Made by a program: the position numbers and the translations under genes
Part shown: piece by piece, positions 51,274 to 62,744 of the stretch
Numbering within the stretch: the stretch's first letter is position 1
Layout of the letters: every line of letters starts with the position of its first letter
Notes under the pieces: model-generated
Told to the model about the DNA's origin: nothing
Database searches by the model: none
Seen by the model: only the letters and a program-made list of their open reading frames with translations
Assembly (NCBI GenBank): GCA_937928405.1
Contig: CALFWZ010000181.1
Location: 1 to 64,000, forward strand
Origin: an uncultured Saprospiraceae bacterium
Lineage (GTDB): Bacteria; Bacteroidota; Bacteroidia; Chitinophagales; Saprospiraceae
Length of the DNA: 64,000 nucleotides
Direction of reading: 5' to 3'

Positions 51274-51863
51274 CCGCGATACTATTGGCTGCTGGGAGTT
51301 CCCGTAGAATGGGTAAAAAAAATAAACTGTTGCTTCCTTATCAAGGTCGCTCTATGATCGAGCACCAAGTGGAGGAAATTCAGCAGAGTAGCCTGACGAA
51401 TTTCAGGGTGGTACTTGGTCATGATGCGGAAAAAATTGGTGCTATTTTACCGTCGCAAATAAACACGGTATTTAACGCAAATCACCTCACTGGAATGACC
51501 AGCAGCATTCAATCTGGGATTGAAGCGGTGCAAGAAAATGTAAAAGGGTATATGATTTGTCTGTCTGATATGCCTTGGGTAACGGCAAAAGATTACGACG
51601 AGATTTTGCATTTCTTTTTAAAAAATATTGATAAATATCCTCGGCTAATTGTTCAGCCAGTTTACCAACAGCGGCGGGGACATCCTGTTATTTTTTCTAG
51701 TTATTACAAAAAGGAATTATTGGACCATACAGCCCCAGAAGGATGTCGCGAAGTTATTCGTATGAATAAAAAAGAAGTTCGTCATTTGGATATGAAAGCA
51801 CCAAATGTTTTAAAAGATATTGATACGCCTGGAGATTACCAAGCAACGTCCATAAACGACTAA
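51261..51863 (+). CDS. MobA/MocA-like nucleotidyltransferase
   Basis: A 200-aa NTP transferase of the MobA-like family. AAILLAAGSSRRMGKKNKLLLP is the nucleotide-binding loop, and CLSDMPWVT carries the metal-binding Asp; RRGHPVIF follows. MocA-type members make cytidylylated molybdopterin; others are sugar or unknown transferases. No molybdenum genes are nearby, so the substrate is open. The ATG lies inside the end of msrA, and its stop overlaps the convergent kinase stop by 4 bp. Confidence 0.87.
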   Translation: MDSVAAILLAAGSSRRMGKKNKLLLPYQGRSMIEHQVEEIQQSSLTNFRVVLGHDAEKIGAILPSQINTVFNANHLTGMTSSIQSGIEAVQENVKGYMICLSDMPWVTAKDYDEILHFFLKNIDKYPRLIVQPVYQQRRGHPVIFSSYYKKELLDHTAPEGCREVIRMNKKEVRHLDMKAPNVLKDIDTPGDYQATSIND

Positions 51864-54034
51864 TCAACAACGGCTGTTTCGGCTTCGATTTTAGGAGGGG
51901 TTGTTTTACTAGCGCCAATAAAAATTTCTAATGGCAAACTAATATGGAAAGTCGTTCCTTCGGTGAGTACCGAATCAAACCAAATTTTACCATTGTATTT
52001 ATCTACGATATTTTTACAAATCGTTAGACCTATACCGGTGCCTTCATAACCCGCTCTTTTGTCAAGTTGATGAAACAGGTTAAAAACTTTATGTGCGTAA
52101 TCCTGATTGATTCCTATACCATTGTCCGCTACGCTGATAATAAAAGCATCTGAAGTGAGTTCAGTTTTTACCTTAATAATGGGCCGACGTCCTTCTGGAA
52201 TAAACTTCAAACCATTACCGATCAAATTTTGCATCAATTGTAGCAAGTGAACTCTACTAATTTGCAAGTCTATTTTTTCGGTAGGTAATTCTAATACGGC
52301 CTCGTTAGAGACTATTTTTTCTCTAAGATTTCCACAGACATCTTCTAAAATATCACCGAGTGTAGTCCGTTCATTTTCTGCTACAGAAGAAGTAATACGA
52401 GAATAGGCCAGTAGGTCTCCCAGTAAATTATTCATTCTAGTGACGCCAGAAGTAACAAATCCCATATACTCGTTTGCCTCTTCGTTAAAATCTTTACCCC
52501 ATTTTTTTTGTATCAAACTAACAAAGCTTCCTACGTTTCTAAGTGGCTCTTTAAGATCGTGTGCTGCTACATAAACAAACTGAGAAAGTACTTCGTTATT
52601 TTCGGCAAGTCGAATATTTTGTGATTCAATCTCTTCCGATTTTTTTCGCAGGCTCATGTTATTTTTTTCCTTGAGCTTGACCATATATCCCAGACCAAGA
52701 ATAAAAACAATCAAGGTAATAGAAATAATAGCAAACATCATCTTATTTTGACGAAGCATCAACGCTTGATATTCCTTGTCATTTTTTTCAACATCAAACT
52801 TAAATTGCAATTCTGTAATACGATCTGTACGTTGCTGATTTTGCATATAATCACTCAACATCGTATAGGTCTCCAGATAAGTTAAAGCCAGGCTATCATT
52901 GCCTTTGTTTTGATTAATTTTATACAAATCGTGATTGTTCTGTTGAGTAAGTTCACGATAGTCTCCAGTTTCTGAGAAGACGAGACTTTTTTTGAAAGCA
53001 ATCTCCGCGGTATCTATTTTATTTTGTTTTAGATATAGTTTGCCTAAGCGATTATGCAATCGTGCATTTTCTAAAGTGCTAAGATATTTTTCGTAGTCAA
53101 AGCATTCCATAAAATAAGATTCTGCTTCGTCGTATAGTTCTAAGTGGGTATAGATTTCGGCAATATTAACCAATCCACGAGAAATGGATATTCCATCTTC
53201 GCTTTGACGATAAACTAGCAGCGATGCTTTTTGTTTGGTTAATGCTTCTTGATATTTTCCAAAAGAAGTAAGAATATTTCCGAAGTCATAGAGCGTACTG
53301 GCGATCAATTTTTTATTGTCCAGTGTTACGGCCATATTATAAGCTCGCTCAATGGTTTTAAAAGACTCTTTTTCGTGTTTGAGATGTCGATAGGTGTTGG
53401 CGATACTTTGTAGGGTAATGACCATCCCTTCGGTTGATTTACGGGATTCGGCTATATTGAGTGATTTTAGATAATAATCAATCGCCTTTTCATATTCGCC
53501 TACCGTTTCGTAGAGAGAGCCTAAACCATGATAACCATTTTCCACCGTTTCAATATCATCTTCTCTTTCGGCCAAATCAATTGCTTTGAGGTGATAATTT
53601 TTGGCAATAGCATATTTGCTCATTTTTTCATAAACAATAGCCAAGTCCGTATAGATGGTTAATTTTAATTGGTTATCACTCATGTTTTGGGCGATATCCA
53701 TACAGGTATTATAACTATTAAGTGCGTTTTGTAGATGATTGTTTTCTTCGAAAACAAATCCCAACTCCCGATTGATATTAAATAAGTCTTTATTATTTTT
53801 AGCTTTGGCCGCTTGATCGCGGGCAATATAAATATAGGCGAGTGCCATATTAAAGTCTTTGTGTGAGGTTCGCGCAGCCATTCGAATAAGGTTCGCGGTA
53901 GTTTTATCCTCGGTTGCATGCATAACTTCTACCTTCAGACTATCCATATTAAAGGAATGTTTAGCGCTGAGGAAAGATAACGGTGCTATGAAGCATATAC
54001 CAATGAGAAGAATTTTAATAATAAAGTCTTTCAT
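51860..54034 (-). CDS. TPR-repeat sensor histidine kinase
   Basis: A 724-aa membrane kinase. A signal-like N-terminus is followed by about eight TPR repeats (residues 55-400; NGYHGLGSLYETVGEYEKAIDYY), a transmembrane helix (about 423-445), a coiled coil, a HisKA domain with phosphoacceptor His in AAHDLKEPLRN near 492, and a HATPase (LMQNLIGNGLKF, ADNGIGI, GTGIGLTICK). No fused receiver and no adjacent regulator. On the same strand, a double-glycine peptide gene lies 136 bp upstream but behind its own terminator. Signal unknown. Confidence 0.93.
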   Translation of the reverse strand: MKDFIIKILLIGICFIAPLSFLSAKHSFNMDSLKVEVMHATEDKTTANLIRMAARTSHKDFNMALAYIYIARDQAAKAKNNKDLFNINRELGFVFEENNHLQNALNSYNTCMDIAQNMSDNQLKLTIYTDLAIVYEKMSKYAIAKNYHLKAIDLAEREDDIETVENGYHGLGSLYETVGEYEKAIDYYLKSLNIAESRKSTEGMVITLQSIANTYRHLKHEKESFKTIERAYNMAVTLDNKKLIASTLYDFGNILTSFGKYQEALTKQKASLLVYRQSEDGISISRGLVNIAEIYTHLELYDEAESYFMECFDYEKYLSTLENARLHNRLGKLYLKQNKIDTAEIAFKKSLVFSETGDYRELTQQNNHDLYKINQNKGNDSLALTYLETYTMLSDYMQNQQRTDRITELQFKFDVEKNDKEYQALMLRQNKMMFAIISITLIVFILGLGYMVKLKEKNNMSLRKKSEEIESQNIRLAENNEVLSQFVYVAAHDLKEPLRNVGSFVSLIQKKWGKDFNEEANEYMGFVTSGVTRMNNLLGDLLAYSRITSSVAENERTTLGDILEDVCGNLREKIVSNEAVLELPTEKIDLQISRVHLLQLMQNLIGNGLKFIPEGRRPIIKVKTELTSDAFIISVADNGIGINQDYAHKVFNLFHQLDKRAGYEGTGIGLTICKNIVDKYNGKIWFDSVLTEGTTFHISLPLEIFIGASKTTPPKIEAETAVVD

Positions 54035-54094
54035 TTAGTAATTATTATTGGTTTAGGACTTTGATTGGTATAATACTAAAGCAAGGAGTGTGCT

Positions 54095-54140
54095 AAAAAA
54101 AACGAATTAGCACAAAATCGTACTAATTCGTTAGTTTTTT
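54095..54140. terminator. Intrinsic terminator of the 59-aa peptide gene
   Basis: AACGAATTAG (54101-54110) pairs perfectly with CTAATTCGTT (54123-54132). Eight A residues precede it on the plus strand, giving a U-run for minus-strand transcripts, and TTTTTT follows on the other side. It separates the peptide gene from the histidine kinase. Confidence 0.88.
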
Positions 54141-54169
54141 GAAGATTCACATCTTCACCGTAGCTAATT

Positions 54170-54349
54170 TTAGCCGCCAAAAGAGTAGCTAGTTTCGTAG
54201 CTAACCGATTTTAAGGATTTAGAAGAGATTTCAGTAGAAGGACGATCCTTTCTTTTGCCATCTCCGCCTCCTTTAAGGCTGATCGACTGATGTCGATTTA
54301 ATACGGATGAAGTTGGAAGCTCACATTGGAGTTTTTCTAGTCTTTTCAT
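54170..54349 (-). CDS. 59-aa double-glycine leader peptide (RiPP-precursor-like)
   Basis: A small gene with ATG and TAA. The N-terminal half MKRLEKLQCELPTSSVL followed by SISLKGGG has the spaced-leucine pattern and terminal GG of Bacteroidota leader peptides, such as those of GG-leader lanthipeptide and radical-SAM RiPP precursors. After GG (27-28) the presumed core is about 30 residues, basic and Ser/Thr-rich (KRKDRPSTEISSKSLKS), with an aromatic tail SYETSYSFGG. A promoter (54381-54409) and a terminator (54095-54140) frame it, so it looks like a complete one-gene unit. No modification enzyme, PCAT transporter or radical-SAM gene is adjacent. Cleavage and modification are inferred. Confidence 0.65.
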   Translation of the reverse strand: MKRLEKLQCELPTSSVLNRHQSISLKGGGDGKRKDRPSTEISSKSLKSVSYETSYSFGG

Positions 54350-54380
54350 GTCATGGATTTAGAAATTTAAAAAAATTAAA

Positions 54381-54409
54381 GAAATATAGTGATAAAATAA
54401 CAACTTCAA
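54381..54409 (-). promoter_or_regulatory. Promoter of the 59-aa peptide gene (TTG-N18-TATATTTC)
   Basis: On the minus strand TTG at 54409-54407 is 18 bp from TATATTTC at 54388-54381, one base from TAnnTTTG, and 31 bp upstream of the ATG. The rest of 54350-54569 has no other gene. Confidence 0.5.
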
Positions 54410-54569
54410 TTATAAGGGGGAATTCGTTGCGGGAAGAGAATTCAGCAGGTAGCCGTTTGCAACAACATTTACTAAACAAATAGGATGCCAGAAGCCGATT
54501 TTATCGTTATTTTGTCATAAAAATCTGTCTATTAAATAATTTTTTATAATTTAAGGTAAAATATTCTGA

Positions 54570-55364
54570 ATGAGTTTTAAAGATAAAGTTGTGTGGATTA
54601 CGGGGGCCTCTTCAGGCATCGGAGAAGCACTAGCAGAAGAATTTGCTCAACTTGGTGCCCGACTGATTTTATCATCTCGGCGAAAAGCTGAATTAGAACG
54701 AGTAAAGGTAAAATTAAAGATGTCGGATGATGATTGTTTGGTATTACCCCTTGATTTGGAGCAGTATCAAGCAATGGAAGATAAAGTAGATATAGCGTTG
54801 AATCATTTTGATCGCATCGATTATTTGGTGAATAATGGGGGAATATCACAACGTTCTCTTATCATAGATACTAAAATGGATGTTTATAAGCGTTTAATGG
54901 ATATCGATTTCTTAGGAACAGTGGCCTTGAGTAAGGCCGTGCTTCCAATATTCATCAAACAAAAATCAGGACATTATACGGTAGTTACGAGTTTGATGGG
55001 TAAATTTGCTTCACCGCTGCGATCGGGTTATTGTGGTGCCAAGCATGCGCTACATGGCTTTTTTGATGCCTTGCGGCTTGAACACGAAGATGATAATATT
55101 GGCGTTACGTTAGTGTGTCCTGGATTTATTCGTACCAATATATCACATAATGCACTAACGGGAACAGGTGCGGCACAACAGACAATGGATAATGCTCAGG
55201 AAAATGGAATGTCTCCCAATGAATGTGCGCAAAGAATTATAAGTGCCATCAATCGAGGGAACTATGAAGCATATATAGGCGGAAAAGAGAGAATGGCGGT
55301 TTACCTAAAACGGTGGTTTCCGAGATTACTACATAGGGTGGTACGCAAATCTGCCGTCACTTAA
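54570..55364 (+). CDS. Short-chain dehydrogenase/reductase
   Basis: A 264-aa NAD(P)-dependent oxidoreductase with the SDR cofactor motif TGASSGIG at residues 11-18, NNGG (about 89-92), the catalytic Ser in VVTSLMG and the YCGAKH (YxxxK) active site. The C-terminal LKRWFPRLLHRVV is amphipathic, as in membrane-associated SDR enzymes of the DltE/YqjQ type. Substrate unknown. It is followed by a predicted outer-membrane gene 73 bp later. Confidence 0.93.
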   Translation: MSFKDKVVWITGASSGIGEALAEEFAQLGARLILSSRRKAELERVKVKLKMSDDDCLVLPLDLEQYQAMEDKVDIALNHFDRIDYLVNNGGISQRSLIIDTKMDVYKRLMDIDFLGTVALSKAVLPIFIKQKSGHYTVVTSLMGKFASPLRSGYCGAKHALHGFFDALRLEHEDDNIGVTLVCPGFIRTNISHNALTGTGAAQQTMDNAQENGMSPNECAQRIISAINRGNYEAYIGGKERMAVYLKRWFPRLLHRVVRKSAVT

Positions 55365-60797: not shown

Positions 60798-62744
60798 TTA
60801 TTTACGTTTATTTTGACGACGACTTCCCCGGTTGCTTCGCCTGTTTGGACTAGCATTATTTTTTCTACGTTTTTTAATGAAATCCCGTTTGAATTGCTTT
60901 TTTCTTTCGCCAATTAGTTTGTCAATCAAATCTTCTCGGCCCATTGATTTTAGCTTGTCGCGAATAGTTTGGTGGTTTTCATTTTTATGCCAGAAGAAAA
61001 AGAGGTGTTGATTTTGTTTTTCTTTTTTAGAAGTAGCTGCATAAACGGGTCGTAAAGTATATGGATGTAAACCAGAATAATAAATAACGGTGCCCACGGT
61101 CATCGGAGTAGGAGTAAAATCTTGCACCTGTTCTAATTTAAAACCCATGCTTTTTGTTTCGGCAGCAAGATTCGCCATTTCTTCTTCCGTAGAACCAGGA
61201 TGACTAGAAATAAAATAAGGGATTAACGGTTGAGCCAATCCATGTTTTTTATTGATCGCATCGTATTTGCTTTTAAAGGCATGAAAGTGTTTAAAGGAAG
61301 GCTTCCGCATTACTTTCAGGGTTTCGTCCGAGGTATGTTCGGGCGCTACTTTTAATCGACCACAAACGTGTCTGGTAACGAGTTGCTCCATGTATTCGTC
61401 GAGGCTGCCATCATTCTTTTTATTGTAGTCGTCGACCAAAAGATCATAGCGAATACCACTTCCGACAAATGCTTTTTTTACGTCAGGATGTTCGTCTACC
61501 TTACGATAAATATCCGTCAGTGGTTTGTGGCTAGTGTCAAGGTTGCTACAGACCACCGGATGAATGCAAGAAGGAGCCACACAACGATCACAAATAGATT
61601 GGTCAATGCCTTTCATTTTGTACATATTGGCAGAAGGGCCACCGAGATCACTGATATATCCTTTGAAATCGGGCATTTTAGTAATCTGATCGACTTCTTT
61701 CAGGATGGATTTTTCGGAACGACTTGCGACAAATTTTCCTTGATGGGCAGAGATGGTACAAAAGCTACAGCCACCAAAACATCCTCGGTGCATATTGACT
61801 GAAAATCGAATCATCTCATAAGCGGGAATGGCTCCTCGCTTCGAATATTTCGGATGCGGCATTCGGGTGTAATCGAGATCAAAGGAAGCATCAATTTCAG
61901 CTTCGGTCATCGGAGGGTAGGGAGGATTAATCATGAGATTATGATCGCCTACGGCCTGCGTTAATCGCCGAGCATTTACTTTATTGGATTCCTGTTCGAT
62001 GTGTTTAAAATTAGCGGCATACGCTTTTTTATCTCGTAGACATTTTTCGTGGGAATGGAGTTTGAGGTCTTCCCAGATTTTTATTTTGGGTAATGGATCG
62101 TTTCGTAGGACTTGGATTGCGGTTTGAGGAATCGTTTTGAGGGATGCAAAGGGAACGCCTTTTTGTAAGAGGCGTACGATTTCCCGTAAGGGCATTTCAC
62201 CCATGCCATAAACCAACATATCCGCACCACTCAGTTCGAGAATATTTGGGAATAATTTATCGGCCCAATAGTCGTAATGCGTTACGCGTCGTAAAGATGC
62301 TTCGATGCCACCGAGCAAAACAGGTACGTCTGGATATAATTTTTTTAGAATTTTAGTATACGTCTCTACCGCATAATCTGGTCGAAAGCCCGCATTTCCT
62401 CCTGGGGTGTACGCATCGGTAGATCGACGGCGTTTAGAAGCCGTATAGTGGTTGATCATGGTATCCATACAACCAGAAGAAACACCAAAGAAAAGTCGTG
62501 GCTTTCCAAATTTTTTAAAATCACGGAGATCGTCTTTCCAGTTGGGTTGAGGAACAATGGCGACTCGGAGTCCTTCACTTTCTAATATTCTACCTACGAC
62601 CGCATTTCCGAAGGCCGGATGATCGACATAAGCATCTCCAGAAATAATGATGACATCAAGTTCATCCCACCCACGGAGCTCTACTTCCTTTTTGGTGATA
62701 GGAAGCCAATCAGTAACGGGGCGAGGATTTGTTTTTTCAGACAT
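60798..62744 (-). CDS. YgiQ family radical SAM protein
   Basis: A 648-aa radical-SAM enzyme of the YgiQ/UPF0313 family. The N-terminal cobalamin-binding-like domain is visible (VIIISGDAYVDHPAFGNAVVGR). The [4Fe-4S] motif CFGGCSFCT (CxxxCxxC) lies near residue 317, followed by the family's own cysteines ICDRCVAPSCIHPVVC. A basic tail (RKKQFKRDFIKKRRKNN) ends the protein. Family function is uncertain; it may modify RNA or a protein. Monocistronic, or upstream of the TspO-like gene. Confidence 0.93.
   Translation of the reverse strand: MSEKTNPRPVTDWLPITKKEVELRGWDELDVIIISGDAYVDHPAFGNAVVGRILESEGLRVAIVPQPNWKDDLRDFKKFGKPRLFFGVSSGCMDTMINHYTASKRRRSTDAYTPGGNAGFRPDYAVETYTKILKKLYPDVPVLLGGIEASLRRVTHYDYWADKLFPNILELSGADMLVYGMGEMPLREIVRLLQKGVPFASLKTIPQTAIQVLRNDPLPKIKIWEDLKLHSHEKCLRDKKAYAANFKHIEQESNKVNARRLTQAVGDHNLMINPPYPPMTEAEIDASFDLDYTRMPHPKYSKRGAIPAYEMIRFSVNMHRGCFGGCSFCTISAHQGKFVASRSEKSILKEVDQITKMPDFKGYISDLGGPSANMYKMKGIDQSICDRCVAPSCIHPVVCSNLDTSHKPLTDIYRKVDEHPDVKKAFVGSGIRYDLLVDDYNKKNDGSLDEYMEQLVTRHVCGRLKVAPEHTSDETLKVMRKPSFKHFHAFKSKYDAINKKHGLAQPLIPYFISSHPGSTEEEMANLAAETKSMGFKLEQVQDFTPTPMTVGTVIYYSGLHPYTLRPVYAATSKKEKQNQHLFFFWHKNENHQTIRDKLKSMGREDLIDKLIGERKKQFKRDFIKKRRKNNASPNRRSNRGSRRQNKRK

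Follow-up and report, generated by a model that had tools for sequence, protein, structure and literature searches.

A conserved double-glycine peptide gene paired with TPR histidine kinase genes in Saprospiraceae and a second family of the same order

A small gene for a peptide with a double-glycine (GG) leader lies directly upstream of a TPR histidine kinase gene in the genome of an uncultured Saprospiraceae bacterium, and GG peptides recur at the same place, on the same strand, before related kinases in related genera and in a second family. The pairing is well supported; it is bound to a clade of kinases and extends over two families of one order. Its simplest reading would be one of ligand and receptor, and we give somewhat better than an even chance to the proposal that the gene makes a precursor from which a C39-peptidase transporter releases and exports a small signalling peptide, recognized as a ligand by the TPR sensor of the neighbouring kinase. 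The sequence analysed, here called the window, is a stretch of 64,000 nucleotides (contig CALFWZ010000181.1, positions 1 to 64,000), and its source is called the window genome. The features discussed below are collected in Table 1.

Table 1. Positions of the peptide gene, the kinase gene, their regulatory surroundings and possible export or maturation genes. Coordinates refer to the window unless a locus is named.
Feature	Position	Strand	Basis or remark
59-aa double-glycine peptide gene	54170..54349	-	Stop codon included; syntenic genus homologues; dN/dS
Leader, residues 1-28, ending KGG	54266..54349	-	M1, L17, G27 and G28 invariant over 21 peptides from several genera
Conserved basic motif DGKRKDRPS, start of core	54236..54262	-	dN/dS 0.077
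Hypervariable tail, Ser/Thr-rich, without Cys	54173..54235	-	dN/dS 0.62 over the first 8 codons, where the alignment is uncertain
Promoter-like region (TTG, 18 nt, TATATTTC)	54376..54409	-	Near-invariant block in 6 aligned genus members; putative function
Intrinsic terminator between peptide and kinase	54101..54132	-	Perfect 14-bp stem, 4-nt loop, T-run; kept in genus
Alternative hairpin TGTGCTAA/TTAGCACA overlapping terminator	54089..54114	-	Fold -8.8 kcal/mol, weaker in G001 (-4.9)
TPR histidine kinase, 724 aa, proposed receptor	51860..54034	-	Pfam TPR_12, HisKA, HATPase_c; pairing statistics
TPR superhelix, about residues 40-400	52835..53917	-	Pfam, model, structure matches
LanB, LanC and C39 transporter cluster of window genome	L134 6075-13311		No precursor found there by our pattern
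Grasp-with-spasm pair of window genome	L170 4778-7521		With its own 53-aa GG precursor
Cassette of C39 transporter, HlyD-type protein, LanB-like protein (PF04738 only) and Omp85-type protein	L133 2031-9712; L212, L213, L214, L177		Genus-shared

The peptide gene is real and conserved. It runs from an ATG through 59 codons to a stop codon, and its product contains ...SLKGGGDGKRKDRPS..., a leader end SLKGGG and the basic motif. A homologue search of 148 genomes, the window genome included, found five homologues, all of them from the genus of the window genome (E 5e-15 to 2e-20, 61–74% identity), and in five of the six other genomes of the genus the gene stands at the same place, between the orthologue of the kinase gene and that of an SDR gene. 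Neither peptide nor kinase was found in the sixth (G002, 74% complete); the genus thus holds both in six genomes and neither in one. Over the leader and the DKRKDRPS motif the six genus sequences yield a dN/dS of 0.116, which indicates purifying selection, and their differences number 28, 19 and 86 at the three codon positions (summed over 15 pairs). The leader combines spaced hydrophobic residues with a terminal GG, as in double-glycine, C39-processed precursors, and the core lacks cysteine in all six genus members. The peptide has no match in Pfam and a single one in NCBIfam, TIGR04194, which at 14.6 bits falls below the cut-off of 33.

These results confirm the observation, and in part the interpretation, of the original prediction, which had proposed from the DNA letters a complete 59-aa gene with a double-glycine leader, a promoter-like TTG-N18-TATATTTC and a perfect intrinsic terminator, and had called for a search for homologues with conserved GG, leader and frame and for an analysis of codon substitutions; both came out in favour of the gene. 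The Tyr-rich tail that it had also described is present in the window peptide but is not a conserved feature: it is different in each relative, and since the tail varies strongly across the genus, the Tyr-rich version is peculiar to the window genome.

The flanks of the gene are conserved as well. TATATTTC is located at 54388–54381, with the TTG 18 nt before it at 54409–54407, and the block GAAGTTGTTATTTTATCACTATATTTCTTTAA does not vary among the six aligned genus members, the TTG itself being TCG in one. The outer 10 pairs of the terminator and its T-run are likewise invariant in the six, and the kinase ATG (54034) lies 135 bp past the peptide stop codon. Terminator-like sites were found between the nearest peptide and the kinase at 18 of 31 loci, compared with 0.35 expected from shuffles (one of the 32 loci, with a gap of 30 bp, was left out, and the score limit was our own). 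Such sites suggest that more peptide than kinase is made. The 3′ arm of the alternative hairpin, which overlaps the terminator (window 54089–54132), is also kept in the genus; the hairpin could possibly serve as an anti-terminator, and because of the overlap a controlled read-through is possible. A known RNA element at the peptide locus was considered and rejected, as the only Rfam match over 53800–54700 was below the cut-off (E 0.83).

Relatives of the kinase were gathered from 199 genomes of the family and 298 genomes of the order, and their surroundings were scanned for small ORFs with a GG leader. A kinase was counted as paired if a GG peptide on the same strand ended within 900 bp upstream of it. 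We used 80 of 91 kinase rows, 11 having been dropped because the start was cut off or less than 400 bp of upstream sequence was available; the 80 include three rows aligned over the kinase part alone and one fragment (L045). The GG pattern was our own and matches four ORFs in the whole window on both strands, the peptide gene among them. A GG peptide was found upstream of 32 of the 80 kinases, compared with 2/80 on the opposite strand, 1/80 downstream and 1/90 upstream of other ORFs of at least 250 aa, the counts not being independent because the kinases share ancestry and are related to one another. The single match among the 90 control ORFs resembles, by eye, a kinase fragment. The original prediction had remarked that a TPR kinase nearby makes a signalling peptide conceivable, and this proved to be its important remark.

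Paired kinases are preceded by one to three GG peptides, in tandem where there is more than one (5 of the 32 loci), and the median gap between peptide and kinase is 140 bp. When the kinases are ordered by similarity to the window kinase, closest first, the pairing rates are 12/13, 5/12, 14/29 and 1/22. Individual reading of the loci missed by the pattern added three peptides, of which L069 and L104 have GG and L074 has GKG, and another peptide was seen at L043 beside a kinase with stop codons. Between 45 and 48 of the 80 kinases have no such peptide upstream, among them the two other TPR kinases found in the window genome. In G071, which belongs to another genus, a 41-aa peptide, ...KIKGGEGDKRKPRPSNGG, stands directly before the orthologous TPR kinase and is still beside it though the other flank differs, the SDR gene being about 6 kb off. 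A scan of public genome records retrieved five genus orthologues and two distant kinases. A TPR-only query in other orders of the class gave 29 TPR proteins without an excess of upstream peptides (1/29 upstream, a doubtful case, and 1/29 on the opposite strand); as just 2 of the 29 matched a simple pattern for kinases, the comparison bears on TPR proteins generally rather than on kinases. No response regulator or transporter is next to the peptide or kinase gene, whose neighbours encode an NTP transferase and an SDR protein.

The type of peptide core largely follows the kinase tree, which was built by a quick method from 78 TPR kinases, with motif labels assigned by our own patterns and L069, L074 and L104 added by hand. 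The window kinase belongs to a clade of 14 members (SH-aLRT 100), and a peptide precedes each of the 13 for which the upstream sequence is long enough: 10 are of the KRxRP type and three, from a clade of their own, end in C-[ILF]-[DE]-W. Motif and no-peptide labels require 17 changes on the tree compared with 35.5 in shuffled data, and none of 200 shuffles gave a value as low. The DPPPW, PPP and “other” classes follow the tree less cleanly (4, 4 and 6 changes). Whole kinase clades, including those of the two other TPR kinases of the window genome, have no peptide. Many cores of other clades are very short and either acidic or rich in proline. The C-[ILF]-[DE]-W class was seen beside TPR kinases at L044, L060 and L069 and without a kinase at L172. 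At L046, L049 and L073 the GG precursors upstream of TPR kinases have a core of four or five GNPPDWD units in a row, resembling multi-copy pheromone precursors, and the three kinases form one clade.

A reverse search, from peptide to kinase, used a profile of 21 peptides against the 199 family genomes. The 10 genomes with strong matches (E under 1e-9) all belong to the 12 that have a close kinase, an overlap that is partly circular because the profile was built mostly from such loci and for which Fisher’s p is not to be taken at face value; its informative part is that no strong match was found in the remaining genomes of the 199. One strong match, L168, lies 12 kb from the kinase. About 40 weaker matches to the leader alone were listed, and the surroundings of a few were inspected: one in G185 precedes a TPR histidine kinase by 309 bp, and in G230 a TPR hybrid kinase that also has an AraC domain is followed, after about 470 bp, by two tandem peptides. 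GG peptides away from kinases are present at L168 and at L169, L171, L172 and L175, the last four being leader-only matches with no kinase recognized adjacent. At L174 (2424–5941), a TPR hybrid two-component regulator is followed by two near-identical tandem GG peptides with a repeated SDPPPFG.

The TPR superhelix of the kinase is probably periplasmic, judging from hydrophobic stretches at residues 1–24 and about 434–453. Confidence in the structure model is confined to the TPR part (about residues 60–390), and among solved structures the model best matches LGN, a peptide-binding TPR protein (Z 31), followed by RapI and NprR (Z 24), the Rap/NprR receptors giving Z 20–24. Such matches of a predicted fold are in keeping with peptide binding without proving it; TPR is a common fold. 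A correspondence in charge between core and TPR domain was tried and rejected: no relation appeared over 28 pairs (rho 0.01), five kinases having been dropped because the H-box pattern failed, along with the fragment L045.

C39 peptidase domains are encoded in all seven genus genomes, with five in the window genome. The original prediction had regarded the peptide as an orphan RiPP precursor, possibly of a lanthipeptide or a radical-SAM product, with no maturation gene within about 10 kb, and had suggested a look for PCAT, LanB or radical-SAM neighbours. No transporter or RiPP-specific enzyme adjoins the gene; the kinase adjoins it instead. RiPP-specific enzymes are indeed absent among the window genes scanned, but about 6.5 kb from the peptide gene, at 60801–62744, lies a gene for a different type of radical-SAM protein (PF08497 and PF04055, without a SPASM match). 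A lanthipeptide in the strict sense was rejected, since lanthionine rings are excluded by a core that has no cysteine in any of the six genus members; full-length LanB was found in the window genome only, out of seven. A grasp-with-spasm peptide was rejected on the low TIGR04194 score and on the distribution of the SPASM maturase (TIGR04193), which was found in one of the seven genus genomes, that of the window, where its own GG precursor adjoins it, and in none of five peptide-bearing genus genomes.

The wider idea of a modified precursor is weakened by these results but keeps some ground in the genus-shared cassette with a LanB-like protein (757 aa, shorter than full LanB), which could act in trans. 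PF04738 matches occurred in four of the seven genus genomes, full-length in only one; G005 gave none, its contig breaking off at the syntenic place. The cassette is present, whole or in large part, in the window genome and in G003, G004 and G006 (LanB-like protein 63–68% identical in these three), and in G005 as far as the contig reaches, which is right after the transporter (95%). The LanB-like gene was not found in G001, G002 and G005, with incomplete genomes or contig ends, and no precursor like the window peptide was recognized beside the cassette. The cassette is a fair candidate for the exporter of the window peptide and perhaps its modifier. The peptide is no orphan in the usual sense, as it keeps company with a kinase, but enzymes acting in trans are conceivable through this cassette.

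If the peptide is a signal, the sequence of events might be as follows. The peptide gene would be transcribed, with transcription mostly stopping at its own terminator, so that peptide could be made in excess over kinase. A C39-peptidase ABC transporter encoded elsewhere would cut behind LKGG and export the core, either unmodified or modified in trans. The core would bind the TPR superhelix through the conserved KRK-x-RP motif, and binding would change the activity of the kinase and hence of a response regulator. Other kinase clades would read other cores, with C-[ILF]-[DE]-W ends, GNPPDWD repeats, DPPPW or CPPP.

Other explanations have to be weighed against this one. In one of them the peptide is a RiPP precursor on which enzymes would act in trans, a candidate being the LanB-like protein shared in the genus; the transporter encoded next to that protein would export the peptide, and the product could be a signal or something else. 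The GG leader, the Ser/Thr-rich tail, the weak TIGR04194 match and a cassette (C39 transporter, HlyD-type and LanB-like proteins) without a recognized local precursor all agree with this explanation, which is unlikely in our judgement: a core without cysteine allows no lanthionine, the tail is not conserved, the LanB-like gene was not found in three genus genomes (incomplete or with contig ends), and the tie to the kinase would be left unexplained. We find it more improbable still that the peptide is a secreted bacteriocin-like antagonist, controlled or sensed by the kinase. Competition could account for the changing tail, and both the leader with the C39 transporters and the tandem copies at some loci would fit, but conservation within the core is highest in a short basic motif, cores of other clades are often very short and either acidic or Pro-rich, and no immunity gene was recognized beside the peptide gene.

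The order of small ORF, terminator and kinase on one strand, with a hairpin overlapping the terminator, also recalls the leader ORF of a transcription attenuator, in which translation of the small ORF would set the read-through into the kinase. Against this, selection on amino acids acts far from the terminator while the terminator-proximal part varies, GG leaders are kept across clades, and solo copies of the peptide occur without a kinase; of all the explanations considered it seems to us the least probable, with hardly any weight. Self-sensing in the periplasm, where the peptide would act within the producing cell alone and report on the transporter or the envelope, shares its entire anatomy with the signalling proposal, and a periplasmic sensor would meet the peptide before its loss. 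Nothing specific speaks against self-sensing and sequence cannot separate the two; we assign it a small probability, a little below that of the antagonist.

The proposed signalling peptide and its receptor can be compared with known systems. Knowledge of peptide pheromones comes mainly from Gram-positive bacteria. In ComC/ComD and BlpC/BlpH of streptococci, a pheromone with a GG leader acts on a histidine kinase and is exported by a C39-peptidase ABC transporter, and the sensor of ComD and BlpH is a multi-pass membrane domain. The window locus likewise has a small GG-leader precursor beside a histidine kinase, the two genes being lastingly linked as in ComC/ComD, and C39 export, known there, is proposed here. 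Unlike the streptococcal systems, the host is Gram-negative, a terminator separates peptide and kinase, the sensor is a TPR superhelix, and no response regulator is adjacent. The RRNPPA receptors of Firmicutes (Rap, NprR and others) act in the cytoplasm, as regulators to which peptides bind after re-import (PMC9765709). They resemble the window kinase in a TPR superhelix of similar fold and in the linkage of a small pheromone gene to its receptor; they differ from it in that the TPR domain here is part of a membrane histidine kinase (HisKA, HATPase_c) and the precursor has a GG leader. The histidine kinases VbrK/VxrA, linked to beta-lactams, contain TPR-like and PAS-like domains with a periplasmic TPR-like sensor (PMC8534201), a place that the window TPR domain would share; the available part of that paper describes no peptide partner such as the one found here. 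GG-motif precursors are also known from Bacteroidales RiPP clusters, one with a histidine kinase and a response regulator and two with TPR genes (PMC10352776), and from grasp-with-spasm graspetides of Bacteroidota (PMC8939145). Modifying enzymes are present in such clusters, unlike the peptide and TPR kinase described here, which have none adjacent. The parts are thus known elsewhere, and no published description of their combination, GG peptides paired with TPR kinases, was recognized in searches of open-access papers other than preprints.

Because the pairing recurs in relatives, Gram-negative bacteria of this group may signal with small peptides. More broadly, and with a probability that we put somewhat under one half, the loci could represent a diversified pheromone system of Gram-negative Bacteroidota, an extracytoplasmic counterpart of RRNPPA, in which exported GG peptides would be read by the periplasmic TPR domains of dedicated histidine kinases, with the classes KRxRP, C-x-[DE]-W, repeated GNPPDWD, DPPPW and CPPP tied to kinase clades. 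Should the ligand–receptor pairing be true, peptides and their receptors would be listed for a large environmental group, ready for tests with synthetic peptides; there would also be a natural series for the joint change of TPR receptor and peptide, and a role for double-glycine peptides otherwise taken as orphan RiPP precursors.

Some TPR kinases without a GG peptide have surroundings of their own. At L102, L122, L126, L130 and L131, lipoprotein-like or secreted-looking genes lie directly upstream of the kinase, and these may be another kind of partner. At L111 (G047), three TPR kinases stand in a row, none with a GG peptide by our pattern.
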